NCBI GenBank assembly: GCA_028686425.1
Contig: JAQUBZ010000006.1
Coordinates: 1-64,000 of the forward strand
Direction: 5' to 3'
DNA length: 64,000 nucleotides
From: Bacteroidales bacterium
Lineage (GTDB): Bacteria; Bacteroidota; Bacteroidia; Bacteroidales; UBA932
The position numbers and the translations under genes were made by a program. The notes under the pieces are model-generated. The model was not told the origin of the DNA. It worked only from the letters and a program-made list of their open reading frames with translations, and did not search any database. The stretch's first letter is position 1. Each line of letters starts with the position of its first letter. Shown here in pieces: positions 1,821 through 63,537 of this stretch.

Positions 1821-1938
1821 AATTAAAGTGTAATAAAAAAACCACCCTTTTTTCAGAATCACCTCAACAAGAAATGTTCAGGATATGGTTGTATGGGTGA
1901 TTAACAATCTCGATGTTAAGTTTGATTCTATAATAAAA

Positions 1939-4714: not shown

Positions 4715-4735
4715 CTTCAATTAGTATTACTGTCA

Positions 4736-31390: not shown

Positions 31391-34021
31391 TTAATAGATA
31401 AAGTGGTAGTATAATACATTATCAAACGCTTCAAGAGGTCTGGTTCCGCTATATCCATTGCAGATAGTAGTAAATCCGTATTTTTCCTTAGGATTGAAAG
31501 TCATAGTGCTTGAAAGTCCGTAAGCCGAGCCTGTATGTCCTTTCAATTTGACTTCAGGAACCCATGAACCGTCCATGGATCTCAAGGCAAATCCGTAAAA
31601 TGTATTTACGACATCTGTCGTGGTATGTCTGCTCTGCATTAGTCTGGAGCTTGATTCGGAAATAATCTTTACCCCATTGGAAGTGCCGTAATTCATGTGC
31701 ATAATCATGTAGCGTGCAAGATCGACAGCACTTATCTTCATGCCGCCTGTAGGTGAAAACAACGCTGCATCATATCCGATTACATAATCGTCAAAGGACT
31801 TTGCAACAGGATAGTATGCCTGAGGATTGTGTTTGAATTGAGCTGCTTTCTTATCATACGAATACAGTGGCACGAAAAGATTGCTGTCCAGATCATTGAC
31901 ATTCAGGCTGGCATTCAGTCCGAGAGGATCGATGATATGCTTTTTGACATACTTGTCATATCTCTCTCCCGAAATCTTCTCTACAACTGCTCCGAGCAGA
32001 TTGAAGTTCAAGTTGCAGTATCTGTAACCGCTGCCCGGACGATAATCACTGTAGCATTTGTCGGAATTCTTGTTTGTTGCAGGATTGATTCTGTCAATAG
32101 TCTTGTATGTCTGCGAGTCGTTGATTGATGAGGTATGGCTCAACAGCATATCAAGAGTAATCTTGTCATTCGGGAAATGAGGATTTCTTATCTTGAAGCC
32201 AAGAATATCACCAACCTCTTGATCAAGAGAGAGTTTACCAGCCTCAACCAATTGCATGATTGAAGTTGCGCAGAAAGATTTTGAAATAGATGCTATTCTG
32301 AAAATATCTTTTTCGCCAAAGACACTCTTCCCTTCAAGATCTCTCTTGCCGAAAGCTCCCTGATAGATTACCTTGTTGTCTTTTACAACAGCGACAGCTA
32401 CACCTATTGCTCCATGCTCCTTCATTGCTCTTTGAATATGGCTTGCGAGAATTGCCGGATCTTTTGACGCATTATGCTTTCTGACAGGAACTCCCGCCAA
32501 AACGCCATTATATTTGCTGTCCTGTACGGCTATCTTGCCATTGATAATCACATATTTCATCCCTGTTGCCATAAGGTCCGATTGCATATAAGTAGAATTG
32601 GCCTTGAACTCTTCAGGCTTGAATACGATTACATCTGCAAAATATCCCTCACGGATAAATCCGCGTTTCTCAATGCCGTAAGTCTCGGCAACTTTGCCGG
32701 AGCTTCTATAGATCATATCCTGAAATGAGATGATTTTGTGTTTGAAGACATATTCCTGCAATTTGAGCGGATATGTTCCGGTGGCTCTCGGATGTGAGCC
32801 GAAAGAGCCGTCAGTACCTGTCATAACCCAAGGTTTTGCCATAAATCGGCGCATATCCTTTTCGTTAATCACAAATGTGTTGACAGAAGGGGTGCCGAGT
32901 TTCAACATTTCAACGACAGCATCGACTTCCGATACGGAAAGCATTTTAGCAATCTCTTTCAAAGTCTTACCCTCAAACTTTGATTCGTTGTCCTTAGATA
33001 TGAGTACTGATTTCGCTCCGTTGCGACTACTGATATTTGCTTTAACAGCCTCTTTGATAAGTGCAAGAGTATCAGGATTTTCAAGTCTTCTGAGCATATC
33101 TTTTCTACCGCCGAGTTCTGCCCATCTCGGCAACATGGATGCAGAGAGGCTTGTATTGGTGGCCACATAAGGATACTGGTCAGCGGTGATATAAAGTCCG
33201 TCTTTTTGAGCCTGCTCAATCAAATCTATAATCTGCTGTGCCTTGCCCCAGAATCCTACAGAAGCCTTGATGTGAGAAATATTCACCTGAACACCGGCTT
33301 CCTTGCCGATTCTGATGGCTTCTCTGATGGAACTGTCGAGACCCGGAGCATTTGAACCTTCACTTCTTATATGAGATGTATAAATCCCCTCTTTGGCAGA
33401 CATTGCCTTTGACAACTCAATAACTTCTTCAGTTGTCGAGAAACTGCCGGGAGAGTAATACAACCCTGTTGACATACCGAAAGCGCCCTCATCCATTGCA
33501 TCAGAAAGTATCTGCTGCATCTTTGCCATCTCTTCAGAAGTAACTTTACGATTATGATCCTTGCCCAAGACTTTTGTTCGTATAGATCCCTGCCCTGCAA
33601 AAAATCCGCAGTTGGTTCCGATTCCCTGTTTCTCCATTTTTGCAAATGTTTCGCTTAATGGGAGAGGACTCGAACCGCATACTCCGCAAAGGACGGTTGT
33701 AACCCCTTGCTGTAGCATGTTTTCATTGGAATTGGTCTCTTTCTTTATCAAAGCTCTATTTGAATGAGAATGAGGATCTATAAATCCGGGGGCAACCACA
33801 TAACCGGTTGCATCGATTATCTTATCGGCGCTCTTGCCGGAGCAGTCACCTATAAAGACAATTTTGTCATTGGAAATCATAATATCGACCTTGACAGGCT
33901 TATTCATCGAACCGTCATAGACCTGACCTCCTCTGATGATGATGGAAGCAGTGTTTTCAGCTGTTAATGGCACAAACATCAATAGTGATAGCGCCAGAGT
34001 CAACAAAAAGTGTTTTTTCAT
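31391..34021 (-). CDS. Fusion of N-acyl-D-amino-acid deacylase and class C beta-lactamase/DD-peptidase domain
   Basis: An exported 876-residue two-enzyme protein (signal peptide MKKHFLLTLALSLLMFVPLT, then A). Residues ~25-510 are an amidohydrolase of the D-aminoacylase family: HSH (H84, H86), C115 in CGVCG, H217, H250 and D404 in TGTDGSFGSHPRATG. Family members release D-amino acids from N-acyl forms. Residues ~520-876 are a serine hydrolase of the beta-lactamase/DD-peptidase/esterase family with S578-x-x-K581, Y668-C-N670 and H829-T-G831. Both active sites look complete. It is the last gene of a SusCD locus that has no glycosidase. Joint action on D-amino-acid peptides such as peptidoglycan fragments is inference. 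Confidence 0.9.
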   Translation of the reverse strand: MKKHFLLTLALSLLMFVPLTAENTASIIIRGGQVYDGSMNKPVKVDIMISNDKIVFIGDCSGKSADKIIDATGYVVAPGFIDPHSHSNRALIKKETNSNENMLQQGVTTVLCGVCGSSPLPLSETFAKMEKQGIGTNCGFFAGQGSIRTKVLGKDHNRKVTSEEMAKMQQILSDAMDEGAFGMSTGLYYSPGSFSTTEEVIELSKAMSAKEGIYTSHIRSEGSNAPGLDSSIREAIRIGKEAGVQVNISHIKASVGFWGKAQQIIDLIEQAQKDGLYITADQYPYVATNTSLSASMLPRWAELGGRKDMLRRLENPDTLALIKEAVKANISSRNGAKSVLISKDNESKFEGKTLKEIAKMLSVSEVDAVVEMLKLGTPSVNTFVINEKDMRRFMAKPWVMTGTDGSFGSHPRATGTYPLKLQEYVFKHKIISFQDMIYRSSGKVAETYGIEKRGFIREGYFADVIVFKPEEFKANSTYMQSDLMATGMKYVIINGKIAVQDSKYNGVLAGVPVRKHNASKDPAILASHIQRAMKEHGAIGVAVAVVKDNKVIYQGAFGKRDLEGKSVFGEKDIFRIASISKSFCATSIMQLVEAGKLSLDQEVGDILGFKIRNPHFPNDKITLDMLLSHTSSINDSQTYKTIDRINPATNKNSDKCYSDYRPGSGYRYCNLNFNLLGAVVEKISGERYDKYVKKHIIDPLGLNASLNVNDLDSNLFVPLYSYDKKAAQFKHNPQAYYPVAKSFDDYVIGYDAALFSPTGGMKISAVDLARYMIMHMNYGTSNGVKIISESSSRLMQSRHTTTDVVNTFYGFALRSMDGSWVPEVKLKGHTGSAYGLSSTMTFNPKEKYGFTTICNGYSGTRPLEAFDNVLYYHFIY

Positions 34022-34062
34022 TTAAGTATAATGTAATTAGTGTATATGTTCAATTTATACTG

Positions 34063-35388
34063 CTATTTGGCAGACAATATCTCCTCTACCGTAATCCACT
34101 TGCCATCAGTGTGCTTCCAACGATAATTCAGTACAAATTTCTCAAGATTCCAATCATAATAGCTCTTTGCATCAGGATCAGCCTCAAAAGAAGCAGGAGT
34201 GTTATTGGCCTTACCTTTATCTGTAATCAGGACATATTCGATGTCATAATGAGATTTGTCATCGGTAGGTACAATCTTCACCCTGACATATTTGTTATTG
34301 TATGTGGTACTTGTACCGGTAGCTCCCGCACCTGCAATGGTTGCATTTGTGGCAATCTGCATCTCCACCATGTCTTTTTCATAACTTACCATATCCTTGT
34401 CAACCGAATAAGCGCCTGTTCTACTGTTGGAAGCTGATGCAACGGTCATCTTACTCCCGTAAGATTTATCATATTCGTTTTTGAGTTCAATCTTCACAAA
34501 TAACGTCTTATACTCTTCGTCGGCTACAAATGCACTCTCCGGAGAGAGTGTCAAAGGGAGATAATAAGTATTTCTGAAGTCCATCTTGTCGGCATAATAC
34601 TCAAGAGTGACTTCACCTTTGCTGACCTCGCTCTTATAAACGATATTGTCGGATGTGATTTTAAAAGCATCCTGTGGCAGAATCGTCTCTTTCGGATATA
34701 TATCTTTCATTGCAGCCTCATCGTATGCAACGTTTATTTTGTATTCTCCCAAAGGAACTCCAAATGCGGCGATTTCGTACTTGTCGGTATTGTTTGCTGC
34801 ACCGTAAACAACTTTTCTGCCTACCGGAGCAACTCCATCCTTGTTTGCGAAGAAATAAAATCGAGGAGTGTCCAATTTTACGGCATACAAGGCCGTTGTA
34901 TATGTTACATCTGAATGCAAAGAGTATTTGGAAGTAGATGCAAGCTTGAACGGAATTACATATTTTTTAGAGGGATCGGTGCATTTTTGGGCAATGACAT
35001 TTGGATAAAATGTAATGTTTATCATCGATTCAACATTCCCGACCTCGATAACAACATTGTTACTATTGAGTTTGTAGCACTCTGCAGGGAGTGCGACTGC
35101 CTGTCCTGAGTACAGTTGTGTAATATCTGCATTGTATTGATCTATCAGAGAGTTATCAATGGAGTATGTCACCGTAAAGGCCTCTTTCTGATTGGCAGGT
35201 CTCAATCCTGAGCAATATACTGCAAGTAATCCGTCAACACTCTCTCCCGTAGCCCACACATTGTTGGAAGAGAAACCGTGAAGAGGAATATATACCTGTG
35301 GTGCATCGTTGTCAAGCCATACGTTCTTGGTACACCCTGATAGGCACAAAGAACAGATTGTTATTATTATAATTAATGACTTTTTCAT
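34063..35388 (-). CDS. DUF1735 (BT_3987-like) surface lipoprotein
   Basis: A 441-residue lipoprotein (lipobox LCLSGC) with two copies of a beta-sandwich that look like DUF1735: residues ~30-170, and ~175-300 starting RFYFFANKDG. Such proteins are frequently encoded after SusCD pairs and are thought to bind substrate at the cell surface. The C-terminal ~130 residues form a further beta-rich domain ending in YRWKHTDGKWITVEE. It lies 33 bases behind SusD and 41 bases before the deacylase fusion. Confidence 0.8.
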   Translation of the reverse strand: MKKSLIIIITICSLCLSGCTKNVWLDNDAPQVYIPLHGFSSNNVWATGESVDGLLAVYCSGLRPANQKEAFTVTYSIDNSLIDQYNADITQLYSGQAVALPAECYKLNSNNVVIEVGNVESMINITFYPNVIAQKCTDPSKKYVIPFKLASTSKYSLHSDVTYTTALYAVKLDTPRFYFFANKDGVAPVGRKVVYGAANNTDKYEIAAFGVPLGEYKINVAYDEAAMKDIYPKETILPQDAFKITSDNIVYKSEVSKGEVTLEYYADKMDFRNTYYLPLTLSPESAFVADEEYKTLFVKIELKNEYDKSYGSKMTVASASNSRTGAYSVDKDMVSYEKDMVEMQIATNATIAGAGATGTSTTYNNKYVRVKIVPTDDKSHYDIEYVLITDKGKANNTPASFEADPDAKSYYDWNLEKFVLNYRWKHTDGKWITVEEILSAK

Positions 35389-35421
35389 AAACGTAGAATT
35401 ATAAATTTTTAATTAAAGAAA

Positions 35422-37284
35422 CTACCATCCGGGGTTCTGTTTTAACGCACCGGCGTATTTTACAAGTTCCGAATATGGGATAGGCCACCAATACATACAA
35501 TCTCTCCAAACCCTGTCTTCCACTTTTTCAACTTCGTATGTAAATCCTACAGGTCTGTTCTTTGAATCGAATCCGGTAGGGGTAATTACGATTCCGTGAA
35601 TAGGTTCACCTAATTTCTCCCCCTCTTTCCATCTTCTTAGATCATAAAATCTGTGCCCTTCAAAACAAAGTTCTATCTGACGTTCATGTTTGATCACCTC
35701 TCTCATCTCGTCCTGAGTCAGACCTTTCGCAATGGCAGGCATCTTAACCCTTGCACGAATCGCATCAATTGCACCTTTGGCAGTATTGATTCCGTCAATT
35801 CTCAACTCTCCGTTGGGATCGACAACTTCAGGTCCGTAAGCCTCATTCATCGCCTCTGCGTAATTCAACACAAGCTCTGCAAATCTGAAAGCCACGCGAC
35901 CACGGCTCGGGGTGGTATAATTACCTGACACATTGGAATATACACTTTCGGAAAGGAATTTCCTGAAATAATATCCGGTCTTGGTGGAATTGGGAAGAGT
36001 TCTGTCTCTGTGTACACCACCCTCATAAGTATCTATGTAATAGGCTTTTGATGATGAAGTACCCCACAAATATCCATTGTAGTTGATTGAAGCATAGAAA
36101 CGTGGGTCTCTGTTTGCATAGGGATCTTTGGCATGTGCAGGATTGGTCCAATCAAAAGGAACAGCCTTGGCTTTGCTCCCCGAACCTGTTACAACTTCAA
36201 ATGCATCGACCATCTCCTGAGTAGGATTGGTATAGCCGTAACATCCGTCAACACCGGCAGGAAGGTTATAATATTCATTCTGACGTGAATATGTCGTAGT
36301 CTTACCTGTTGCAAATATTGTCTCCTTATTGGCCAGATTGGCTGCCAGATGGACAACGTTGTTGTATGTACCTGTATTCGAGAATGGTCTTGTATATTTG
36401 GTAACGGGAGTAAGTCCGTAAAATTCGTTGGCATTGATCGCTTCGCGAGCGGCATCCGCTGCAGCCACCCATCTGTTTACATCACCAACCGTGTTTTTAG
36501 GACTTCCGAAAGATTCAAAATCTCCCTGATACAGAGGACTTGCATAATAGAGAAGCAGACGAGACTTTAACGCCATTGCAGCTGTTGCATTGGCTCTGTG
36601 CCAATTGGCTTCATCCCACAATAGAGGAAGAGAATCAATTGCGCTGTTGCAGTCTTTAAGAATCTGTGCGACACATTCGTCCATTGTATTTCTCGGTCTC
36701 TTAAGATCACCATCAAACTCTTCAACGGAGGTTGAAATGGGAAACGACCCGTAATCCCTAAGCAACTGAAACTGCAAAAATGCTCTCCAGAAATAAGCCT
36801 GTCCCTTAAAATATGTTCTGTCATATCTTCTTGTCGGGTCATCAATATCATCGATAAGTACCGAATGATCCACATTTTCAAGGAATGTATTGACTTTTCT
36901 GATACCGAGATATGCGTTAAACCATGGTTGCCTCCAATATCTTGTAGAAGTCCACGGGCCTCCATACAATCTGGTCGGAACTCTTGTAGGGTTCCAGACA
37001 CCATTGGTAAAGTTCTGAACTGCTGCAGTAGAGACTGAGTGTTCAGCTTCATCGGTAGCTGATGCCAACATGCCATATCCGTTGACGTCATTTACATACG
37101 GAGCCATGATGTTATCAGCATATACTGCTTCAAGCACCCCTTTGGTATATTTGTAATTACCCCATACATCGTCTGCCGAACGTGCAGCGTCAGGTGGCCA
37201 CGGCTCAAGGAACGGACGTGAACACGAAACTGAAACACAGGCTAAAATACCCAAAATAATACCATTAATATATAATTTCTTCAT
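35422..37284 (-). CDS. RagB/SusD family lipoprotein (second pair)
   Basis: A substrate-capturing lid of the SusC transporter, 620 residues. It has a lipobox (CVSVSC), an N-terminal region with TPR-like helices (FKGQAYFWRAFLQFQLLRDYG) and the C-terminal family end KHERQIELCFEGHRFYDLRR, then PSPIPYSE-like WWPIPYSELVKYAG and QNPGW. The stop of SusC is 3 bases upstream. It differs in sequence from the other SusD at 40443, so the two pairs likely take different ligands. Confidence 0.93.
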   Translation of the reverse strand: MKKLYINGIILGILACVSVSCSRPFLEPWPPDAARSADDVWGNYKYTKGVLEAVYADNIMAPYVNDVNGYGMLASATDEAEHSVSTAAVQNFTNGVWNPTRVPTRLYGGPWTSTRYWRQPWFNAYLGIRKVNTFLENVDHSVLIDDIDDPTRRYDRTYFKGQAYFWRAFLQFQLLRDYGSFPISTSVEEFDGDLKRPRNTMDECVAQILKDCNSAIDSLPLLWDEANWHRANATAAMALKSRLLLYYASPLYQGDFESFGSPKNTVGDVNRWVAAADAAREAINANEFYGLTPVTKYTRPFSNTGTYNNVVHLAANLANKETIFATGKTTTYSRQNEYYNLPAGVDGCYGYTNPTQEMVDAFEVVTGSGSKAKAVPFDWTNPAHAKDPYANRDPRFYASINYNGYLWGTSSSKAYYIDTYEGGVHRDRTLPNSTKTGYYFRKFLSESVYSNVSGNYTTPSRGRVAFRFAELVLNYAEAMNEAYGPEVVDPNGELRIDGINTAKGAIDAIRARVKMPAIAKGLTQDEMREVIKHERQIELCFEGHRFYDLRRWKEGEKLGEPIHGIVITPTGFDSKNRPVGFTYEVEKVEDRVWRDCMYWWPIPYSELVKYAGALKQNPGW

Positions 37285-37287
37285 GGT

Positions 37288-40200
37288 TTAAAATGTTAAG
37301 TTAATTCCTAAATTAAATACTCGTACCTGCGGGTATCTTGAAGTACCGGCAGCAACATCTTCCGGATCATATCCGAGTTTGCTTACGTATGACCATGTAT
37401 ATGCATTGTATGCATTAAGATAGACTCTGATTCCGCTTACTTGAGACTTCTTCAACAACTTTTCGGGAATTGAATAGCCGAGTTCGGCATTTTTCAGTCT
37501 TAAATAAGAACCATCATACATCCAAAATGTAGAGGCTCTCCAATTGTTATCATTAGAAAGAGTGGTTAGACGAGGATAAGTAGCTGTAGCATAATTATTT
37601 GAACCGTCATCATTCATACGATAGCGGCCAAGTGCCACCTCGGTTATACCTCCATTATCGTAGAAGGCTCTGAAAGAGTCTCCGTTAAGATAATTGGACT
37701 TGCAACTGACACCTTGGAAGAGCAGAGAGAGGTCAAATCCTTTATATGCAAAGTTAAAATCAAGAGCAAAAGACATCCTGTAGTCAAGACCGTCTCCGAT
37801 GGCGGTAAGGTCATTGGAGTCAATAATATTATCTCCATTAAGATCTTTGTATTTGATATCGCCCGGCTGATAAGGACCGAATGTCTGTGTAGGACTGTTG
37901 TTTACATCATCCCAATCCTTGAACAGACCGAGAGAAATATAACCGTAATCCTGTCTTACCCTTCGTCCTGTCTCGAGAAGATTGTCATACTCTTTGTAAG
38001 GTTCCGCCATTGCGATGATTTCACTATCCCACCAATTGAAGAAACCATTGACGGAATATCTGAAATCCCCGATATGGTCATTCCATCCCAAACTGAATTC
38101 GACACCCGATGTATTGACGATACCCTCATTGCCTATAGGAAGTCTGTTATCCATCAAACCTATGATCCAAGGGGTTGAGCCGACACCTACAGTGTATATA
38201 TCGTATCTGTGATCTTTCCAATATTCGGCTGTAAAATTCAAACGATGGTTCAGCAAAGTCCCTTCCAAAGCCACATTCAGCATACGCGATTTTTCAACCG
38301 TTACGTTAGGATTATCGAAACGACCTTCACGCACGGTGATTGCACTTGTCAGAGATGTTCCGAAATATTGTTGTCCTGAAGAAGTCCACCATCTCTGTCT
38401 TGCAGGGTATCTTTCATCATTACCGTTTACATCTTCAAATGCATAGCTTCCGTTACCGACAATACCGAAAGATCCTCTCAATTTCAAATAATCGAGCCAT
38501 CCTCCTGTCCCTTTCATGAAATCTTCGCCTGAAATAATCCACGCAGCGCCAACTGCAGGGTAGAAAAGACGGCGATTGTTGGTATCATAGAAGCGATCAC
38601 TCCCCATGTAACTCCCTGTGACATCGATAAAATATTTGTTGTTATATGAGTAATTTGCATAAAACGCATAATTCTGATATTTCATATCGGACTGGTTATT
38701 TTGTCTGAACTCGGTAGTCTGCTGATTGTAAAGCAACATGGCATTGACCCCGTGCTTACCAAATTCTCTATTGTATTTGATATTGGCATCAAGGCCGTTA
38801 TATCTGTCCACATCGTAATATCCCGAAGTAGCAAGAGATGTTTCCTGTCCGAATGACGTATATTTGTTGGTGCCATCGGCGAGTTTGCTGTACTGCCACA
38901 CAAGAAAGTTTCTCGACTTTTCAACTCTGTACAAGTTATATCCGTCCATATAGTACGAAGCCTCGACAGAGAGTCCTTTTGTGATAAACTCACTCAAGTC
39001 TGCCTTAGCCTTGGCTGTCACCTGATAATATCTTCTGGTATTCTCATTGTAACCGCTGTATGAAAGATAACCGAGCGGGTTATTTTTGTACAACGAGTTA
39101 CCACCGAGCATCAGAATCTCCTTGTTCAATGTAGGTTCAATACCTTTAAAAGAGATCGGATATGCATTTGAAGGAGTCATCAGGGCCTGAAGTATATCGG
39201 CAGTTGCGATACTCGGGTATCTTCTATCCTCGATACGTCCTGCAACATCGGCGGATACTGTCAGCCAATCGGTAACATTGACATCTATATTGGACCTCAG
39301 ATTATACTTGTTATAACTGATATTTGTGCTGAAATCCGCATTCTCGTTAGTGTGGGCAAACAACCCATCCTGACTATTATAGGCAAGAGCCACAAAATAT
39401 CTTACAATCTTGTTGCCTCCTCTCATGGTAAGAGAGGCTTTTTTCTGATAAGCGTAATTCTTTATAAATTCGTCATAGAAATTGACATTCGGATGAGTCA
39501 GAGGGCTGGCTCCACTTTTGTACAATGCCAGATCTTCATCCGAATAAGTATTTTCCAACCCATCATTGTGTCTTGCCTCATTATAAAGTGAAGCATAATT
39601 ATAGGCATCTAAATAGTGTGGAAGATTGGTCGGAGTCACAATACCGGAGCTGATATCCAAGTCGACGGTGCGCCTGTTAAGTTGTCCCCTTTTTGTGTTG
39701 ACAAGAATAACTCCGTTGGCTGCCCTCATTCCGTACAAAGCAGTGGCGGAAACATCTTTCAACACACTGAACGATTCTATTTCAGAAGCATCCAATTCTG
39801 AAAAATTTCTTTCAAATCCATCGACTATTATCAAGGGATTGGGAGAGCCTCCCACCGTCATTGCGTTATATGCTCCGTCGTACAAGGTTCTGGTGCCTCT
39901 TACCATTATTGTTGCTTCATCAAATCCGGGAAGCCCTGCGAGCTGCCTGATATACAGACCCGATACACGTCCTGCCAGAGCATTGCCCAATGACATCACG
40001 GGGCTTTTTCTCAACTGTTCATTATGAGTTGTAGCCACAGATCCCGTAATGCTACGCTGACGGTCCGTCCTCCAAGGCATATTGACATAATCGCCAACTC
40101 CTTGTCCGGCAACTGCATCTTTCATTATGATTTGCAAGTATCCGTCAGAAGTTACCTGCTGAAATACCTCCTGAAAATAATCTGCATTGAATACGAGTAC

Positions 40201-40428
40201 AGCTCCTTTTTTAGGAACGGTGATTTCAAAATCACCGAGTTCGTCCGTTTCGGCATCTATAAATGAGTCCTGCACGGTGACGGTAACACCCATCAATGGC
40301 AGACCTTTGTCGCTCTTGACATTACCGTGTATGGTAATATCCTTATCCTGAGTCTTTTGTGCACTTGCAATCTGAACACTCAGGAACAAGGCAAAAATCA
40401 ATAATATGTATTTGTATGTATGTTTCAT
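37288..40428 (-). CDS. SusC/RagA family TonB-linked receptor (second, without STN)
   Basis: An outer-membrane transporter of 1046 residues from ATG 40428. A Shine-Dalgarno-like AAGGAG six bases before this ATG decides the start; the frame to 40449 would overlap the SusD stop. After the signal peptide it has a carboxypeptidase-regulatory-like domain (ITIHGNVKSDKGLPLMGV), then a plug with the SusC hallmark (LIIVDGFERNFSELDASEIE, SVLKDVSATALYGMRAANG), then the barrel. It lacks the N-terminal STN domain of its partner locus gene at 42290, so only the latter is likely to signal to FecR. Confidence 0.94.
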   Translation of the reverse strand: MKHTYKYILLIFALFLSVQIASAQKTQDKDITIHGNVKSDKGLPLMGVTVTVQDSFIDAETDELGDFEITVPKKGAVLVFNADYFQEVFQQVTSDGYLQIIMKDAVAGQGVGDYVNMPWRTDRQRSITGSVATTHNEQLRKSPVMSLGNALAGRVSGLYIRQLAGLPGFDEATIMVRGTRTLYDGAYNAMTVGGSPNPLIIVDGFERNFSELDASEIESFSVLKDVSATALYGMRAANGVILVNTKRGQLNRRTVDLDISSGIVTPTNLPHYLDAYNYASLYNEARHNDGLENTYSDEDLALYKSGASPLTHPNVNFYDEFIKNYAYQKKASLTMRGGNKIVRYFVALAYNSQDGLFAHTNENADFSTNISYNKYNLRSNIDVNVTDWLTVSADVAGRIEDRRYPSIATADILQALMTPSNAYPISFKGIEPTLNKEILMLGGNSLYKNNPLGYLSYSGYNENTRRYYQVTAKAKADLSEFITKGLSVEASYYMDGYNLYRVEKSRNFLVWQYSKLADGTNKYTSFGQETSLATSGYYDVDRYNGLDANIKYNREFGKHGVNAMLLYNQQTTEFRQNNQSDMKYQNYAFYANYSYNNKYFIDVTGSYMGSDRFYDTNNRRLFYPAVGAAWIISGEDFMKGTGGWLDYLKLRGSFGIVGNGSYAFEDVNGNDERYPARQRWWTSSGQQYFGTSLTSAITVREGRFDNPNVTVEKSRMLNVALEGTLLNHRLNFTAEYWKDHRYDIYTVGVGSTPWIIGLMDNRLPIGNEGIVNTSGVEFSLGWNDHIGDFRYSVNGFFNWWDSEIIAMAEPYKEYDNLLETGRRVRQDYGYISLGLFKDWDDVNNSPTQTFGPYQPGDIKYKDLNGDNIIDSNDLTAIGDGLDYRMSFALDFNFAYKGFDLSLLFQGVSCKSNYLNGDSFRAFYDNGGITEVALGRYRMNDDGSNNYATATYPRLTTLSNDNNWRASTFWMYDGSYLRLKNAELGYSIPEKLLKKSQVSGIRVYLNAYNAYTWSYVSKLGYDPEDVAAGTSRYPQVRVFNLGINLTF

Positions 40429-40442
40429 GATTGTCTCCTTTT

Positions 40443-42278
40443 TTACCATCCCGGATTTTGTTCTATTCCCAAATTATAAACCTCATCCTGAGGAATCGGA
40501 TACAGGTACATCCTCTTAGGGTCAAAATATCTCTCTTCCACTTTCTTTTTGGTATAAGTGTAAGTCGAGCCTGATTTGACTACATCAACACCGTACAATG
40601 TACCGTTGATAAGTTCTTCACCTTTCTTCCACCTGAGAATATCATAGAAGTACTGATCTTCAAATGCAAGTTCAATTGTCCTTTCATTTTGGATTTTTTC
40701 TCTTGCAGCCTCTTTGGACATCCCCGCCGCAAAAGCAGGCATACCGTTAGGAAGAACGGGGAAGTCGGGGTTTTCACTCCTTTCAACCTTTACATAATAG
40801 AATGGATCGGACTCTCCGCCAATCTCTTTGTTTTCAGGACAAATTAATCTTCCCCTCAATGTATTGATTGCATCGATTGCAGTCATCGGTGTTCCGCTGC
40901 TCAACCCGTAGGTGTCGGGGCCGAAAGCTTCATTCATTGCTTCTGCATAATTCAGATAGATTTCACCGAGGCGGATATAATATGAAGACAATTTGGAACT
41001 GCCCGGATTCTTGTTATCCTTGCACTCCCTCGGCCAGAATTTTCTCAAATAATAACCTGTCTTTGAGAAAAGGTGATTCTTGGGATCGATGTCCGGTCCG
41101 TATTCCGTACCGTCTCTCCATGTCCCAATTTGTCTCTTAATCCAGAAACGTCCATTATATAATACAGTATAATAAAATCTCGGATCGCGGTTCTTGTATA
41201 TATTGTCCACGTGATTCCGGTTGTTCCAGTCGAACTCTTCAGTTCCTATCGCAACACCCTTTGAATCATATTTTATAACCTCAAAGCGATCGACGAAGTT
41301 CTGTGAAGGGTTGTTGCTTGCATATCCCCAGAACTGGTCTCCTGGAGTAGCCTGTTCGTATCTTATCAATTGTGAATTGAACGTCAAATCGTTGGCAGAT
41401 ATTTTATTATAAACGATGATTTCGCTTACTCTGTCACATTGGTATCTCATGAAGATGTTCTGCCAATCTTTTGAAAGTACATGCAATTGTGTCTCGTCAC
41501 AGTAGTCAATAAGCTCTTTGGAAGCCTGTGCCGCTTTAATCCATTTTTGTTGATTGTTGCCAGGATTGTTCAAAGGACTTGCCGCAAAGAGCAACACTCT
41601 CGACCTCAAAGCCATTGTCCACGCTTTTGTTGCCCTTCCTATATTGTCGTCATCCCACTTGTCGGGCAACACTTCCTGAGCAGCATCAAGATTTTCACAT
41701 ATAAAGTCAACAACTTCATCAACCGAAGATCTCGGAATTTTCATATCCGACTCAAGTGTCAGAACTTCTTTAACGATAGGAACTGCTCCATAACGTTTGA
41801 TAAGTTCGTAATAGTAATATGCCAGCATAAACTGAACCTCACCTTTCATCGTCACTTTTCTCCCTTCAGGTTCGTTGTTGAAATTTTTCATATTGTCCAA
41901 AAACATATAAGCCCTGCGGATCTGCGTATAACAAGCTCCCCATCTGTCAATTTCGGCAGAGGCGGAATTATGCTTCCAATTGCCTGAATTGAATGCGCGG
42001 TTTGTAGCTCCGTATGTTGCCGAATAGTCCGACATATCTGTAGCAGACTCAAGAAATCCATAGTATCCTCCAAACTTACCATCACCTGTCCATGTAGGCG
42101 ACATATAATAATAGAGTAGGTCCATATACCTGTTAGCCCTCAAATAATCCTCAAATATATATTCTTTGGGCTGCTCCGAACTTGGTGCCTGGTTGAGAAA
42201 CTCCTCACAAGAAACACTCGCAAGCAAAGTTGCAACAAGCATAAACGAGAGTAAAAATTTATTTGTTATCTGTTTCAT
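40443..42278 (-). CDS. RagB/SusD family lipoprotein (first pair)
   Basis: The lipoprotein partner of the STN-bearing SusC, 611 residues. It has a lipobox (LLASVSC), EFLNQAPSSEQ after it, family helices (MLAYYYYELIKRYGAVPIV) and the conserved end (NERTIELAFEDQYFYDILRW; YLYPIPQDEVY; QNPGW). It starts 11 bases behind its SusC, and its stop is 14 bases from the next SusC start. Confidence 0.93.
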   Translation of the reverse strand: MKQITNKFLLSFMLVATLLASVSCEEFLNQAPSSEQPKEYIFEDYLRANRYMDLLYYYMSPTWTGDGKFGGYYGFLESATDMSDYSATYGATNRAFNSGNWKHNSASAEIDRWGACYTQIRRAYMFLDNMKNFNNEPEGRKVTMKGEVQFMLAYYYYELIKRYGAVPIVKEVLTLESDMKIPRSSVDEVVDFICENLDAAQEVLPDKWDDDNIGRATKAWTMALRSRVLLFAASPLNNPGNNQQKWIKAAQASKELIDYCDETQLHVLSKDWQNIFMRYQCDRVSEIIVYNKISANDLTFNSQLIRYEQATPGDQFWGYASNNPSQNFVDRFEVIKYDSKGVAIGTEEFDWNNRNHVDNIYKNRDPRFYYTVLYNGRFWIKRQIGTWRDGTEYGPDIDPKNHLFSKTGYYLRKFWPRECKDNKNPGSSKLSSYYIRLGEIYLNYAEAMNEAFGPDTYGLSSGTPMTAIDAINTLRGRLICPENKEIGGESDPFYYVKVERSENPDFPVLPNGMPAFAAGMSKEAAREKIQNERTIELAFEDQYFYDILRWKKGEELINGTLYGVDVVKSGSTYTYTKKKVEERYFDPKRMYLYPIPQDEVYNLGIEQNPGW

Positions 42279-42289
42279 AATTCAAACCT

Positions 42290-45200
42290 TTAAAATGTTA
42301 AGTTCACTCCAAAACTATATCCCTTGGTCTGTGGATAAATAGAACCTGTTGAACCGGTAGGTGTTTCAGGGTCAACCACTTTAAGTTTGTCCCATGTCAG
42401 CAGGTTTACACCGCTGACGTATAATCTCAACCCTTTGACAGATGCCTTTTTGCCGAAATGGAAAGTATATGAAAATTCAATATTCTTCAAGCGCAAATAA
42501 GGATTGTTTTTCTGGAAAAAAGTATTTCGAGTATGGTTCTGACTCGTTCCGCCGATATGCAGTGCCGGATATGTTGCAGTTTCAGCAGTTTCGGCGGTCC
42601 ATCTTCCGAGATGAATATCCTGAACACGGCCTCTGTTGTAAAATTCATACATCAAGTAATTGGAAATGAATACACTGCTCTGAGCTGCACCTTGGAAGAG
42701 CACGTCAAGAGCGAAATTTTTGTATGAAACGTCAAATGAAAGGCCGAAAGTCATCTGTGGAATTTTTGGAAATCCTATGGGAACCTTGTCATAATCATTG
42801 ATTTCACCGTCACCATTATAGTCAAGATACTTGAAATCACCCGGAATAGGGGGATCTCCCACACGATGTACGGGAGAATTGTCGATTTCTGCCTGATCTT
42901 TGAAAAATCCGAGTACTACAAATCCGTACTGCTGTCCAATCGGATTACCCTCTTCTTTCTGCCACCAAAGCTTGTCTGCCGGTTCATCTTTATAGACAAC
43001 TTCATTACGTACATAAGTAAAGTTGCCTCTTACATTGAATGAGAAGTCTTTTCCTATATTTTGCGAATAGCCGGCCTCAACTTCCCATCCGTTTTTCTTG
43101 GTTTTACCTATGTTCATATCGGAAACTCCTATACCGAGGATGCCCGGAATCGAATTAGGAGCCATCAGAATGCCTTCACGATTTTCAAAGAAACGGTCAA
43201 CGGTTAAAGAAACCTTATGATTGAACAGAGACAAATCCAAGCCCACATTTGACTGATAAGCCGTCTCCCATGTAGCGTATGGATTGGCAATGACAGGTTC
43301 GGTAGAGTAACCGAGCGAAGATCCTACATCAAGGCCGAATCTTGAATAGCTTGTGGTTCCGGTAGTCCATTTACCGTCTTTATAGATAAAGCGGATATTG
43401 GCATAATCGTTACCGGTTACACCGTATGAGGCTCTTACCTTGAAAATATCTATGATATTCTGATTTTTCATGAAGTTTTCATTGTGAATATTCCATCCGA
43501 CAGATATTGACGGAAACAAACCGAATCTTCTGCCAGGGGCAAAGTTTTCGGAACCACGATATGCGGCATTTGCCTCAACATAGTAAAGCTGTTTGTACGA
43601 ATAGTTGGCTCTGCCGATGAAGCTGACCGAATTGTATGGAACGCTTGTTCCTGTTCTGTAGTCGGAGATGTTGGCGATGCCAGTAATCGACACATTATGG
43701 TTTTTGAATTGTCTCTTCCAGCTGATATTTGCCTCTCCATAGACCTTTCTCGTAGAAGAGATAGAGCTTGATGATGTACCGAAGAATGCAGGTTCAAGAA
43801 ACGATTCGTATCTGTCCTCTCTTCCCGGCTGTGAAATCAGGTGGAATGTGGATTGTGTTTCAGACCATGCCTTTTCATTACCGAAGTTGCTATCGTATGC
43901 TGCACGAACCGAAGCCTTCAGCCCTTTTACCAACTTATTGAAATCGTATGATAATTTGACAGAGGTGGTAATGGTATTATTTTTAGTTCTCGAATTACCT
44001 CTTGTATTCAACAGATACATCGGATTGCTTGCCGGAAAATCGGTAGTACCGGTATATGATCCGTCAGGATTGGTTGCCGGCATAATCCATGACGGGATTC
44101 TGTTCATATACATAAAAATCTCATTATCCTCTTTAGGCTGGCTTCTGTCTGTCAATCCGCCGCCAAGGTCAATTGATATGGTAAAATCGTTTGTCAGCAA
44201 TATATCGACATTCGATCTGAATGTATAACGTTCATAAGAGAATTTAGGGTCATAAATACGTCCCTGTTGTGTCTTCAACTGTCCACCCTGGTACATATAG
44301 GTTCCTGAAAGAAAATAGCGGACCGTCTTGGAGCCGCCTCTTATACTCAGGGAATTATTATTTTGAGTAGAAAAATCTTTCATCATAAGACCATACCAAT
44401 CGGTATCGGGATATCGGTAAGGGTCATCCTGCAATTTATAGTGCATCAACTCCTCTTCCGAATAAAGCGGTTCATTTCCGTCATTTACCAGAGCCTCATT
44501 ATACAACTTAAGACTTTCGTAAGAATTCAGGTAATCAGGATACCTTGTAGGCTGATTAAGAGTGACTGAAGAGTTGAACGAAATGCTCATCTGCCCCTCT
44601 TTTCCTCTCTTGGTGGTAAGGAGTACCACTCCGTTGGCTGCTTTTGAACCGTAAACCGCCGTAGCGGCAGCATCCTTCAAAATGGAGAAAGACTCCACTT
44701 CACTCGGATCGATTCTCAAAAATTGAGACTGATTGCGTTCAACACCATCTATTACATATAAAGGTTCGGCATTGTTCCATGTACCGGCACCTCTGACATA
44801 GATTGTGGACTGGTCGTCTCCAGGTTTACCGCTGCTCTGCATGGTAACCAAGCCCGGAATACGTCCTGCAATGGAGTTGGAGATATTGGCAACGGGAGAT
44901 TTCATGATTTCTTCCGCCTTGACAGTGGAAACTGCCGAAGACATGGTGATTTTCTTCTGTTCGCCGAAACCGACTATCACAACCTCTTCCATCATCTGGG
45001 TTTCAGGTCTCATCACATAATCGATAACTCCTCTTTTTCCTATCTCAAGAGATTCCGTCTTATAACCAAGGAAACTGAAAGTCAGATGTGTTGCCTTTGC
45101 AGGGACATCAATCGAATAATTACCGTCGGCATCTGTTATCGAACCGACCGTTGTGCCTGTAACGAATACATCGACAAACGGAAAGGGTTCCCCTCTCTCG

Positions 45201-45604
45201 TCCAATACCCTGCCGGTTATTTTGGATTTTTGGACGGTTTGAGCCGCCTGTGCCGACTCTTTCTCCGCCTTTGTAAATAAAATTACCTGTTTTCCTTTCA
45301 GCTCATACTGAATGTCTGTATTCCTGAAAAGAACATTTAATGTCTTTGAAAGAGATTCCCTTTTCACTTCGATGGAAACTTTTTTTGAGACATCGACAAA
45401 TGTGGCAGAATAGATAAAAGCATATCCTGTCTGCTTTTCAATTTCCGAAATAGCTGTCCTGATTGATACATTTTTCAGTGAAAGACTAACGAGGGTATTC
45501 TGTTGAGCATACATGGAGCTGCCCATACACAAACACATAAGCAGGGATAATATCCCGGCCCTAAACCCGTCTTTCCATAAAAAATGGCAGTGTCGTTTTT
45601 TCAT
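42290..45604 (-). CDS. SusC/RagA family TonB-linked receptor with N-terminal STN signalling domain
   Basis: An outer-membrane transporter of 1104 residues. After the signal peptide comes an STN domain (about 36-112; LVSLSLKNVSIRTAISEIEK). A carboxypeptidase-regulatory-like domain follows (ITGRVLDERGEPFPFVDVFV), then a plug with PLYVIDGVERNQSQF and SILKDAAATAVYGSKAANG, then the barrel. STN domains in such receptors contact a FecR-type anti-sigma factor, and fecR with its sigma gene sits directly upstream, so substrate binding probably induces this locus. Confidence 0.95.
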   Translation of the reverse strand: MKKRHCHFLWKDGFRAGILSLLMCLCMGSSMYAQQNTLVSLSLKNVSIRTAISEIEKQTGYAFIYSATFVDVSKKVSIEVKRESLSKTLNVLFRNTDIQYELKGKQVILFTKAEKESAQAAQTVQKSKITGRVLDERGEPFPFVDVFVTGTTVGSITDADGNYSIDVPAKATHLTFSFLGYKTESLEIGKRGVIDYVMRPETQMMEEVVIVGFGEQKKITMSSAVSTVKAEEIMKSPVANISNSIAGRIPGLVTMQSSGKPGDDQSTIYVRGAGTWNNAEPLYVIDGVERNQSQFLRIDPSEVESFSILKDAAATAVYGSKAANGVVLLTTKRGKEGQMSISFNSSVTLNQPTRYPDYLNSYESLKLYNEALVNDGNEPLYSEEELMHYKLQDDPYRYPDTDWYGLMMKDFSTQNNNSLSIRGGSKTVRYFLSGTYMYQGGQLKTQQGRIYDPKFSYERYTFRSNVDILLTNDFTISIDLGGGLTDRSQPKEDNEIFMYMNRIPSWIMPATNPDGSYTGTTDFPASNPMYLLNTRGNSRTKNNTITTSVKLSYDFNKLVKGLKASVRAAYDSNFGNEKAWSETQSTFHLISQPGREDRYESFLEPAFFGTSSSSISSTRKVYGEANISWKRQFKNHNVSITGIANISDYRTGTSVPYNSVSFIGRANYSYKQLYYVEANAAYRGSENFAPGRRFGLFPSISVGWNIHNENFMKNQNIIDIFKVRASYGVTGNDYANIRFIYKDGKWTTGTTSYSRFGLDVGSSLGYSTEPVIANPYATWETAYQSNVGLDLSLFNHKVSLTVDRFFENREGILMAPNSIPGILGIGVSDMNIGKTKKNGWEVEAGYSQNIGKDFSFNVRGNFTYVRNEVVYKDEPADKLWWQKEEGNPIGQQYGFVVLGFFKDQAEIDNSPVHRVGDPPIPGDFKYLDYNGDGEINDYDKVPIGFPKIPQMTFGLSFDVSYKNFALDVLFQGAAQSSVFISNYLMYEFYNRGRVQDIHLGRWTAETAETATYPALHIGGTSQNHTRNTFFQKNNPYLRLKNIEFSYTFHFGKKASVKGLRLYVSGVNLLTWDKLKVVDPETPTGSTGSIYPQTKGYSFGVNLTF

Positions 45605-45670
45605 ATTGGTATTTAGATTAATTGACTATTGTTTAGAATACATTTGTCATTATCTAAACCCTAAAAAAAC

Positions 45671-46687
45671 TTAAAGACTTAAATAAATTTGCCCTTTACT
45701 GTTTCTTTTGTGATGTATTTCCATCGATTTACAGAAAATATCGAGGATATTGTCGAGAGAAAGATTGCTCAAATTGCCCGTAAATGAAAATTTATTTATT
45801 TTCCTGTCTGAAACGACAAATTCCACCATGTAGTAATCTTCAATTTTTTCGAGAACATATTCCATTTCCTTTTCTCTGAAATCAAACCAATTGTTCACAA
45901 AATTATCGGATTGATAGAACGACTCAGGAATGGGCGCTGTTGAATACTGCATCAGACTGTCTATTGTAATAGACTCTCCCTCAACCATCTGCACATCATT
46001 ACCAATGATATTGAGTGCAGGTATGTCAATACTTACGCTGCCTTGCGTAAGAGTAAGGTCGAAACTCTTTGCCTCGTAGTCGGAATGGACATAAAACGAT
46101 GTGCCGGTAACCGTCACTATAATATTATTGTCCGTCCTGATGTGCATCGGCAGAGACGGATTCCTGACAACATCAAAATATGTCTCCCCCTTTATGTACA
46201 AATCCCTGTCGGTTTCACCGTAATTTTCAGACACATACACTGTTGTATTTTCATTGAGAAACACACGCGAATTATCGGGCAGTCTGTAGAACAATGTCTC
46301 CTGAGAGTCATTCGAAATCACGGAATAACTCATCATATTGAATGTCATTTTCTCTATAACAGGCTTATTGTCAATATATTGATGATACAAAACAAAAAAT
46401 AGTGCGATAGCGGCTGCCACTCCGGCAAGAGATATACCGAATCTTGCGAATATTTTTCTCCCCCTCTTCTCTCTATTGAGATATTTTACGGCAAACAGAT
46501 TATATTCAGTTGCTTCCTGTACACTCTCTTTGTCATCAACCATCGCAGTAATCATGGTCATATCGTTATACAAACGATAATAATAATCACTGTTGGCTTT
46601 TGAACGGGACATCCACTTCTGCAAGGCAACACGTTCAGATGGAGAGGCTTCTCCCTGAATACATCTTATGATAGTTTCTTTTTTCAT
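45671..46687 (-). CDS. FecR-type anti-sigma factor
   Basis: An inner-membrane regulator of 338 residues. It has a short cytoplasmic N-terminal sigma-binding part (to ~80), one membrane helix (about 86-104; LAGVAAAIALFFVLYHQYI), a periplasmic FecR domain (RLPDNSRVFLNENTTVYVSE; VTVTGTSFYVHSDY) and a C-terminal STN-like/DUF4974 region (KFSFTGNLSNLSLDNILDIF) that would meet the STN domain of SusC. It lies 44 bases behind the sigma gene. Confidence 0.93.
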   Translation of the reverse strand: MKKETIIRCIQGEASPSERVALQKWMSRSKANSDYYYRLYNDMTMITAMVDDKESVQEATEYNLFAVKYLNREKRGRKIFARFGISLAGVAAAIALFFVLYHQYIDNKPVIEKMTFNMMSYSVISNDSQETLFYRLPDNSRVFLNENTTVYVSENYGETDRDLYIKGETYFDVVRNPSLPMHIRTDNNIIVTVTGTSFYVHSDYEAKSFDLTLTQGSVSIDIPALNIIGNDVQMVEGESITIDSLMQYSTAPIPESFYQSDNFVNNWFDFREKEMEYVLEKIEDYYMVEFVVSDRKINKFSFTGNLSNLSLDNILDIFCKSMEIHHKRNSKGQIYLSL

Positions 46688-46731
46688 TTAATATACAGAA
46701 TACAAATAAACAAGCCCGATTACTAAAAAAT

Positions 46732-47265
46732 TTACAGCAAAGACTCCACTTTTTTTCTAAGAATTCTCAATGCCACCATCATTCTATACTCCACTGTCTT
46801 GACATTGATATTCAATTTTTGTGCTATCTGCTTGTTCGTCAATTGGTTTTTTTTCTTTAACAAAAATACTTCCTGCTGTTTTACGGGCAATTGGGCAACA
46901 TATTCGGCCACTTTACGCCAATAGTCATTTTCAAACATATTCTGCATATACTCACTGTCAAGAGCTTTGCAACTGTCCTCAAACTCCCTGGAGATTTTCT
47001 TTTTTCTCAAATAATTTATCGAATTGTTTCTTGCTATACGCAATACATAAGACTTGCACCCCTTCTCGGGATAGAGTTTTTCTCTTGAACTCCACAATGC
47101 GAAGAAAGATTCCTGTGCAATATCTCTTGCATCCTCACCTGAAAAGACATACCCCCGGACAAAGGAGAATACAGGCTTAAAAAAAACTGTATAAAATTTT
47201 TTAAAAGCTTCCGTATCCCCCTCTTTTATCCTTTTGGTAAGTTCTATTTCAGCTTGATCGATCAT
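46732..47265 (-). CDS. ECF-type RNA polymerase sigma factor (Bacteroidales SusCD regulator type)
   Basis: A 177-residue sigma factor. Region 2 has FSGEDARDIAQESFFALW, and region 4 is LPVKQQEVFLLKKKNQLTNK, then QIAQKLNINVKTVEYRM as the helix-turn-helix. Region 3 is absent, as in ECF factors. Paired with FecR and an STN-type SusC, it should activate the locus on substrate sensing. It begins 33 bases after the S46 peptidase stop, so read-through from the upstream operon is possible. No consensus promoter was seen in that gap. Confidence 0.94.
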   Translation of the reverse strand: MIDQAEIELTKRIKEGDTEAFKKFYTVFFKPVFSFVRGYVFSGEDARDIAQESFFALWSSREKLYPEKGCKSYVLRIARNNSINYLRKKKISREFEDSCKALDSEYMQNMFENDYWRKVAEYVAQLPVKQQEVFLLKKKNQLTNKQIAQKLNINVKTVEYRMMVALRILRKKVESLL

Positions 47266-47298
47266 TATGTAATAACACTACAACAATGTCAAAAGCAG

Positions 47299-61509: not shown

Positions 61510-62271
61510 TTATAGTCCTACAACTCTTCTCTTGTATTCTTTGATACAGGCATCAAGTCTTTCGTGAGCCGTGGTGTCACCCGGAACATTGTGTGAAGGG
61601 TGAATGTAAAGTTTCACTCCGCGGTCTGCAAGGATTTCTGCAACAGTGCAGATAGTCATCCATACTGTTGTGATGAAAGCAACTGTAGAGATAGGACCGA
61701 TCTTGTCCTGATGTCCTTTCAAATCGACTGAAGCATCAACGAGAGGGCAGCATGAGTCAACTACGTAATCTGCTATCTGAAACAGATTCTTTCCCCCCGA
61801 ATGGCGAGGTTTCTTGTCGCCTGTCTGGGCAGCCGAACCAAACACAATGACCTTCATGCCACGTTTTTTGGCTTCAAGGGCTACATCGATATTGACGGCA
61901 TTTATACCGGTATGAGAGAAAAGCCATAACACATCTCTCTTATCGAAATTCCAGCTTTTCATGATTGCCTGACCGTAACCTTCTGTCCTTTCAAGGAAAA
62001 GGAACTGATCGATACCCATTTCACCGGTGATATGGGTGAAAAATGTCAATGGAAGCTCACATAGCGGGTGAAATCCTACGAAACCACCGATACGCGGATA
62101 CATTTCTTCAATAGGAAGGTTTGCGTGACCGCAACCGAAAGTGTGTACCCAGCGACCTGCCTGGATAGTGTCTGCCATTACCTCTGCAACTTTCTTGATG
62201 TTCTCCATCTGAGTTGCATCAATTGTGTTCATAACGCTCTGGGCGTTTTTTAACCATTCTTGTGCTAACAT
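61510..62271 (-). CDS. SIS-domain sugar isomerase-like protein (UPF0309 type)
   Basis: A 253-residue cytosolic protein with the SIS fold that binds phosphosugars. Visible are WVHTFGCGHANLPIEEMYPR near residues 41-60, FSHTGINAVNIDVALEAKKR (sugar-phosphate loop) and VIVFGSAAQ. UPF0309-family members have this length; their reaction is not established. It lies 68 bases behind the GH18 gene, so amino-sugar metabolism is a reasonable guess. Confidence 0.82.
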   Translation of the reverse strand: MLAQEWLKNAQSVMNTIDATQMENIKKVAEVMADTIQAGRWVHTFGCGHANLPIEEMYPRIGGFVGFHPLCELPLTFFTHITGEMGIDQFLFLERTEGYGQAIMKSWNFDKRDVLWLFSHTGINAVNIDVALEAKKRGMKVIVFGSAAQTGDKKPRHSGGKNLFQIADYVVDSCCPLVDASVDLKGHQDKIGPISTVAFITTVWMTICTVAEILADRGVKLYIHPSHNVPGDTTAHERLDACIKEYKRRVVGL

Positions 62272-62339: not shown

Positions 62340-63482
62340 CTATTTTTTCATCACAGCTTCCCACACCGCCTTGCGCAATGTCCCCTTTGCATCGTCTCCG
62401 TCATATTCCCAGCACATCATACCCTTGAGTCCCAACCCGTTGGCCCATGTCCCTTTGAGGGTGATACTCTGCTGATTGTCATATCCGCAATAAAACTTCC
62501 CGTCAGCGATGGTAGTAACGTATGGAACCGAAGCGGCATTATCCCAATTATCTGTCTTATATACAGCCTGATCCATAGTGAGAATCTTTTTATAGCTTAT
62601 TGCCGTGGGACTCTTGCTGAATGAACGGCGTCCGTAGAACGGGATTCCCAATACGATTTTGTCCGGAGGGACTCCTGCCGAGGTATAATTGGCGACAGCT
62701 CTTACGCAATCGTAGTAGGCGTTTGCCGAACGAAGTGCCGAGTGATGGTGCGGCTGTTCATCCATATCGTAAGTCATGACATTGACGTAATCCACGTATG
62801 GATTCACCCCTGCTATATCTATGTACCTCATTCCTGTGGATACAGATTTCTTGTCCATAACATATCCGGCATACGTAAGCAGATACTTGGTACCGAGGGT
62901 TGCCCTCAACTGCTTCATCAGCAATACGTGATTCTCGACATCCACTGCCGGATCGCAAGCGTGTCCGCTCCACGAAAGTCCCGGAAATTCCCAATCTATA
63001 TCTATTCCGTCTATTCCCCACTCTTCGATAAATGCAAGACAATCTTTTGCAAATGCCTTCCTTCCCTCATCCGTCTTTGCCATTGCCGAAAATCCTCCCC
63101 CCTGGCTGTTATCCGCATTTGAAACCAAATGTGTAAACGAGAGCAGTACCTTCAAGTCCGGATTGACATGTTTGAGATCTACTATACTCTTGAAGCGGGA
63201 TTCTTTTCCCTGAAGCTTAAATCCCTGATATACATTGTTACTCACATACAACTCCGCAAATGCGTAATTGATGTGTGTTATGAGCTTTGGGTCGGGAATT
63301 GTTGTTCCGTAATATGTTACATAGTGGATAGCCACTTTCCCGGCAACTCTTTCTGCAGGGACGTAAGGTTTTTCCTCCTCAGGTTTATCTTTTTCCGGAA
63401 CGTACGGGTCTTTCCCACAGCTTTGAATAATCACAATTAGCAAAACGGCTGTAAGAAGTGTATATAAAGTGTTACGTCTCAT
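62340..63482 (-). CDS. Glycoside hydrolase family 18 lipoprotein (chitinase-like)
   Basis: A 380-residue lipoprotein from ATG 63482 (lipobox IIQSC, C22), with a Pro/Glu/Lys linker at 25-43. The TIM barrel has the GH18 catalytic motif DGIDIDWE (158-165, E165 the acid) and the typical LSFTHLV and MTYDMDEQPHHHSALR strands. It should cleave beta-1,4-linked N-acetylglucosamine in chitin-type oligomers or N-glycans. The consensus promoter at 63507-63537 rules out the longer frame to 63518. Confidence 0.92.
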   Translation of the reverse strand: MRRNTLYTLLTAVLLIVIIQSCGKDPYVPEKDKPEEEKPYVPAERVAGKVAIHYVTYYGTTIPDPKLITHINYAFAELYVSNNVYQGFKLQGKESRFKSIVDLKHVNPDLKVLLSFTHLVSNADNSQGGGFSAMAKTDEGRKAFAKDCLAFIEEWGIDGIDIDWEFPGLSWSGHACDPAVDVENHVLLMKQLRATLGTKYLLTYAGYVMDKKSVSTGMRYIDIAGVNPYVDYVNVMTYDMDEQPHHHSALRSANAYYDCVRAVANYTSAGVPPDKIVLGIPFYGRRSFSKSPTAISYKKILTMDQAVYKTDNWDNAASVPYVTTIADGKFYCGYDNQQSITLKGTWANGLGLKGMMCWEYDGDDAKGTLRKAVWEAVMKK

Positions 63483-63506
63483 TGAAAAAGGTTTGATTTG
63501 AGGGTG

Positions 63507-63537
63507 CAAAGATACCATTAATTGAAAGTATTACAAA
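63507..63537 (-). promoter_or_regulatory. Bacteroidales promoter for the GH18 gene
   Basis: On the minus strand TTTG (63534-63537) and TATCTTTG (63507-63514) are 19 bases apart, a full consensus match. The -33 box touches the stop codon of the upstream gene. Confidence 0.8.

Follow-up and report, generated by a model that had tools for sequence, protein, structure and literature searches.

A double SusCD operon ending in a D-aminoacylase/S12 peptidase-type fusion in a gut-type Bacteroidales genome: a candidate uptake locus for D-residue-containing peptides

Results

Gene content of the locus

The stretch of DNA analyzed here (the window, 64 kb in full) belongs to the genome of a gut-type member of the Bacteroidales (2.22 Mb in 51 contigs, 92% complete). 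It contains an operon of eight minus-strand genes with intergenic gaps of at most 66 bp and one 7-bp overlap (Table 1). The gene set of the original prediction, comprising an ECF sigma factor, a FecR protein, two SusCD pairs, a DUF1735 lipoprotein and one fused enzyme, was recovered base-exact, and only the STN-type SusC, which had been counted besides the two pairs, has to be reassigned: it is present, but it is SusC1 itself, and the locus has two SusCs in total. The two adjacent SusC/RagA and SusD/RagB pairs (TIGR04056 over the cut-off, PF07980) identify a SusCD uptake locus. As had been claimed, no carbohydrate-active enzyme, the hallmark of a polysaccharide utilization locus, was found within 31391-47265. 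The nearest glycosidase seen in the window is a GH18 lipoprotein (62340-63518) 15 kb past the locus, which is adjoined by a SIS-domain protein (61510-62271). Elsewhere in the window (1269-4720), a Vsr endonuclease, a MutH-domain (restriction-type) endonuclease and a C5 cytosine methyltransferase are encoded consecutively near a tRNA-Leu gene, likely as a restriction-modification set. The PDB matches of SusC and SusD gave no substrate discrimination, and the DUF1735 protein had no PDB relatives at E 0.01.

Table 1. Features of the locus, with positions in the window
Feature	Position	Strand	Evidence
ECF sigma factor (Bacteroidales sigma-70 family 1, TIGR02985)	46732..47265	-	131 bits vs cut-off 126; Sigma70_r2/r4_2
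FecR-type anti-sigma factor	45671..46687	-	PF04773 + PF16344 (FecR, FecR_C)
SusC1, SusC/RagA TonB-dependent transporter with N-terminal STN domain	42290..45604	-	PF07660; TIGR04056 932 bits
SusD1, SusD/RagB surface lipoprotein lid	40443..42278	-	PF07980, PF14322
SusC2, second SusC/RagA transporter, without STN	37288..40449	-	TIGR04056 755 bits
SusD2, second SusD/RagB lipoprotein	35422..37284	-	orthologs 59-73% in 12/399 family genomes
DUF1735 (BT_3987-like N) lipoprotein, presumed surface-binding	34063..35388	-	PF08522; kept after SusD2 in relatives
Fusion, N part (residues 1-515): signal peptide + D-aminoacylase-type amidohydrolase, subtype V Cys/His/His site	32477..34021	-	
Fusion, C part (residues 516-876): S12 serine peptidase-type domain, SxxK / YxN / HTG	31391..32476	-	
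Inserted segment between ComF (ends 31390) and S46 peptidase (ends 47299)	31391..47298		

The operon as a single insertion

In six relatives of the same genus (G146, G136, G126, G115, G542, and G503), the stops of an S46 peptidase gene and of a convergent comF gene are located ∼2 bp apart, and in the window 15.9 kb sit precisely between these two stops. Because S46 and ComF abut in the relatives that lack the locus, the eight-gene segment represents one insertion at this site, which carried all eight operon genes jointly. The base composition of the segment is ordinary, and no mobile gene, repeat or target-site duplication was seen at its junctions. The upstream S46 dipeptidyl peptidase was considered as evidence for a peptide substrate and rejected, since its adjacency to ComF is ancestral in relatives without the locus.

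Architecture and active sites of the fusion enzyme

The enzyme is encoded by a single open frame of 876 amino acids, with a signal peptide without lipobox, an amidohydrolase domain at residues ∼24-515 (PF07969/PF01979) and a domain of the S12 beta-lactamase fold at ∼524-875 (PF00144, 184 bits). Both active sites had been described as complete, and the alignments agree, as the metal and catalytic residues and the S12 motifs are all intact. In the N half, H84/H86, C115, H217, H250 and D404 are unchanging across the three full-length fused proteins aligned and correspond to His67/His69, Cys96, His220, His250 and Asp366 of the subtype V site of AfDam (1m7j), and the AfDam carboxylate anchors Lys252, Tyr283 and Arg377 are likewise found as K252, Y283 and R412. 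The Ser289 anchor is N289 in the fusion and S or G in the fused relatives, at a place where a one-residue alignment shift is possible. Regarding the AfDam pocket, Phe191, Met254 and Met346 are replaced by Y188, S254 and V384, and Leu298 falls in a region that is not alignable.

In the whole-chain model (pLDDT 74, with weak C-terminal loops), the N domain matches D-aminoacylase, N-acyl-D-Glu deacylase and OngB at Z ∼47, while the next group is at Z 34. OngB is tied with the D-aminoacylases (Z 47.2 vs 47.5 and 46.9). However, of the residues that characterize OngB, Ser292 and Gln298 (PMC12017989), the first is T290 in the fusion, Thr as in D-aminoacylases, and the region of the second is not alignable; furthermore, position 188 is Tyr, not Ala.

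The motifs SxxK, YxN and HxG of S12 and other penicillin-recognizing enzymes are present as S578xxK581, Y668xN670 and H829TG831, and they are invariant in the same three fused proteins. Modeled alone (pLDDT 81), the S12 half has Pab87 (2qmi) as its top structural match (Z 35.9), followed by esterases, the R61 DD-peptidase and alkaline D-peptidase (Z 33-34); esterases and beta-lactamases are thus also neighbors in fold, with Z just 2-4 below Pab87. The profile ranking is similar, with Pab87 at 133 bits, the R61 DD-carboxypeptidase at 118, alkaline D-peptidase at 115 and class C beta-lactamases at ∼51, and Pab87 is the best match by sequence, profile and structure. The fusion lacks both marks of the CubicO protease (Pab87) subfamily: YRYCN replaces FFYLN, and the chain stops after the S12 domain, without a lipocalin domain. 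Pab87 prefers D-Ala-anilide over L-Ala-anilide and removes D-Ala from muropeptides, and its gene lies near D-aminoacylase and dipeptide ABC transporter genes in Pyrococcus abyssi (PMC2651629). The nearest solved relatives of the S12 half are D-specific, although the fold includes esterases too, and the fusion enzyme is likely to be specific for D-residues.

Relatives of the N half

Among 80 GTDB proteins related to the N half (36-46% identical), none is fused to an S12 half. Their 75 same-strand close neighbors include M14 peptidases (9/75), dicarboxylate/glutamate symporters (8/75) and mandelate-racemase-type proteins (4/75). Three of these last four exceed the NCBIfam cut-off for DgcA and one further neighbor exceeds that for DgcN. 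A tblastn search located DgcA, an N-acetyl-D-Glu racemase, in 19 of the 80 loci and DgcN in 20; both are taken here as D-glutamate enzymes on the strength of their NCBIfam names. Sphingomonas mali (L110) encodes an S12 protein, the deacylase and the symporter in three successive genes. The relatives in D-glutamate operons are only ∼36-42% identical, and most carry Asp where the fusion has its metal ligand Cys115. Over the 31 aligned N-half relatives, Asp occupies this column in 26 (counted by eye), and these proteins could possibly represent a separate metal-site subtype. Other fusions also occur in this family, to an S9 prolyl-oligopeptidase domain in Acidobacteria (L051 1-3615) and to an FmdA/AmdA (acetamidase/formamidase) domain in Gemmatimonadota (L061 8918-11497). 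DgcN and DgcA, which stand beside the deacylase in D-glutamate (Dgc) operons, are absent from the locus in the window, and no DgcA was found over the cut-off in the source genome, where the best DgcA-like match reached 211 bits vs 400.

Fusion and double-SusCD cassette in the family

The fusion gene was found in 5 of 399 family genomes. A joint MAFFT alignment, with many N-half and few C-half homologs, misplaced the C halves, and for this reason a smaller set and a C-only set were used. The fused forms make up one clade whichever half the tree is built from (support 0.99 and 1.00), and therefore the fusion arose once. In three genomes (G126, G503, and G115) it adjoins a same-strand M14 carboxypeptidase and a SusCD pair, and an AAT-family (penicillin-acylase-like) Ntn-hydrolase was seen near it in G126 and G503. 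Its G141 counterpart comes after a SusCD pair, and M14, AAT and C1-type peptidase genes follow ∼15-25 kb further on. The corresponding M14/sigma/FecR/SusCD/AAT set of the source genome is on another contig, without the fusion. In G115 the reading frame of the fusion gene (L041 2095-4239) is interrupted within the S12 half, by assembly error or decay. We also observed a 788-aa frame with two tandem S12 domains (G104:C11:13426-15561) and BPL_N-type proteins, two of them with a PPC domain, recurring beside peptidase/SusCD loci (L149 13824-16434, L180 3-1229, and L141 7649-9007).

The SusC1-SusD1-SusC2-SusD2 cassette is present in 12 of the 399 genomes, the source genome included (SusD2 59-73% identical), and DUF1735 is next after SusD2 wherever the contig or stretch extends. 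The slot that follows holds an M64 peptidase in L168, and an M28 peptidase in L173 and L178. In L170 it is occupied by a DUF285/leucine-rich lipoprotein, and in the remaining cases it has small or unrelated genes or the contig ends. This comparison of neighborhoods revealed no glycosidase among the neighbors read beside the 12 close cassettes, the likely partners being scanned with Pfam and the others judged by their sequence starts. In G212, a distantly related double SusCD (33-43%) is followed by genes that, by their sequence starts only, read as GH3, GH2 and GH5. G141 carries the cassette and the fusion on separate contigs, and each occurs without the other elsewhere. The two are separable modules, each otherwise accompanied by peptidases or amidases, joined so far only in the source genome.

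Discussion

We have described an operon in which two tandem SusCD importers precede a single enzyme that joins a D-aminoacylase-type domain and an S12 domain. The prediction of a peptide or amide substrate rather than a glycan is now well supported, as the relatives of the cassette carry an M28 peptidase twice, an M64 peptidase once, and a non-enzyme or nothing as the enzyme, and the other fused proteins adjoin SusCD pairs, M14 carboxypeptidases and an AAT/penicillin-acylase-like Ntn-hydrolase. The prediction of D-residues fares differently for the enzyme and for the whole layout. It holds for the enzyme, with its N-half relatives in DgcA/DgcN operons and its C half nearest to the D-peptide-specific Pab87, but not for the layout, because the fusion and the cassette are separable and the cassette is found elsewhere with peptidases without known D-preference; their union here is no ground for calling the importer D-specific.

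Taking together the peptidase company of the cassette and of the fusion and the kinship to the D-glutamate operons and to Pab87, the reading as a D-residue peptide locus is the best explanation. We therefore favor, with some reserve, an uptake operon under sigma/anti-sigma control for D-residue-containing peptides or N-acylated amino acids. The stronger proposal, a D-peptide utilization locus in which a dedicated SusCD importer and a bifunctional trim-and-release enzyme form a non-glycan counterpart of a polysaccharide utilization locus, is put forward tentatively and has somewhat less than an even chance. The substrate may be a peptidoglycan stem peptide, another D-peptide or an N-acyl-D-amino acid; an origin from peptidoglycan is plausible. 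Several observations speak against the favored reading: the fusion and the cassette occur apart, DUF1735 is otherwise a mark of glycan loci, the distant double SusCD of G212 precedes likely glycosidases, the D-glutamate-operon relatives are distant and mostly without the metal Cys, esterases and beta-lactamases are close to the S12 half in fold, and no DgcA over the cut-off was found in the source genome.

According to the protein families, the uptake would be inducible through the sigma/FecR/STN set, with a ligand in SusC1 signaling by way of the STN domain and FecR to the ECF sigma factor. Capture and import of the substrate would fall to the DUF1735 lipoprotein together with both SusCD lids. 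In the periplasm, where the signal peptide without lipobox would place the fusion, the S12 domain could strip terminal D-residues, as Pab87 does from muropeptides and D-Ala-anilide, and the D-aminoacylase domain could next cleave N-acyl-D-amino acid or X-D-Xaa amide bonds, freeing the D-amino acid. With both activities on one chain, trimming would be coupled to release.

It could be argued that the operon takes up peptides or protein fragments in general, the cassette importing L-peptides and the fusion being one of several interchangeable enzymes, which clears the minority that contains D-residues. SusCD peptide importers are known (RagAB), the cassette ends elsewhere in M28 (L173, L178), in M64 (L168), in a non-enzyme or in nothing, and the fusion is accompanied elsewhere by different SusCDs. 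We nevertheless consider this explanation rather unlikely, as both halves of the operon's sole enzyme are of D-type and its gene came in with the other seven between S46 and ComF. Less probable still is a role with glycans, glycopeptides or amino-sugar acids, either through an OngB-like de-N-acetylase or through the import of N-glycans or glycopeptides with glycosidases encoded elsewhere. The structural tie of the N domain with OngB, the GH18 gene in the window and the likely glycosidases after the distant double SusCD of G212 would fit it, as would DUF1735, which has been reported almost solely from glycan-directed loci carrying GH18 and GH92 (PMC11216935). However, the fusion has Thr290 for the Ser292 specific to OngB and Tyr for Ala at position 188, the neighbors read of the 12 close cassettes include no glycosidase, and peptidases, amidases and D-Glu enzymes are the families encoded nearby.

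Finally, detoxification or self-protection, in which the enzyme would destroy D-residue antibiotics or beta-lactams entering via SusCD, seems very improbable to us. The S12 fold is common to class C beta-lactamases and to ClbP, which cleaves N-acyl-D-Asn prodrugs, but the class C profile scores far below those of the D-peptidases, the HTG motif is as in DD-peptidases, the relatives lie in catabolic D-glutamate operons, and two importers with their own regulator suggest nutrition.

A glycan is the usual default assignment for SusCD loci. The parts of the present locus are known and their combination is new. In the literature, we found no paper linking N-acyl-D-amino-acid deacylase with SusD, nor any linking D-aminoacylase with beta-lactamase and Bacteroidetes. 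A conserved double-SusCD cassette with a peptidase-type enzyme slot, here filled by a D-aminoacylase/D-peptidase-type fusion, is a candidate for D-amino-acid peptide nutrition in gut Bacteroidales and a possible route for recycling the cell-wall peptides of other bacteria.

Several known systems resemble parts of this locus. AfDam (1m7j) and the N-acyl-D-Glu deacylase BbDam (3gip) share with the fusion the fold, the subtype V metal site, the catalytic Asp and the Lys/Tyr/Arg anchors, but they are 25-30% identical, have no S12 domain attached, and differ at the pocket residues and at the Ser289 anchor. The GlcNAc1A deacetylase OngB (9kb1; PMC12017989) has the same fold and metal site, while the fusion departs from it at the diagnostic Ser and its locus is without oxidative-chitin genes. 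The proteobacterial D-glutamate operons (DgcN, DgcA) contain relatives of the N domain, in some cases (L086, L094, and L128) an S12 relative, and peptidase and glutamate-symporter neighbors; in contrast to the locus described here, most of these N-domain relatives have Asp for the metal Cys, and an inner-membrane symporter is present, with no SusCD seen beside most of the operons. In the Pab87 region, an S12 D-peptide-specific peptidase gene likewise lies near genes for a D-aminoacylase and a dipeptide transporter, and processing of bacterial cell-wall debris has been proposed for Pab87 (PMC2651629). However, these are separate genes with an ABC transporter, and Pab87 is a cytoplasmic octamer with a lipocalin domain, whereas the locus in the window has one secreted fused chain, SusCD importers and sigma/FecR control. 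These importers and regulators, with their SusC/RagA and SusD/RagB pairs, ECF sigma/FecR proteins and DUF1735 lipoprotein, are those of RagAB and other SusCD loci of Bacteroidota, from which the present locus differs in having, in place of a CAZyme, a D-aminoacylase/S12 fusion as its enzyme behind two tandem SusCD pairs.
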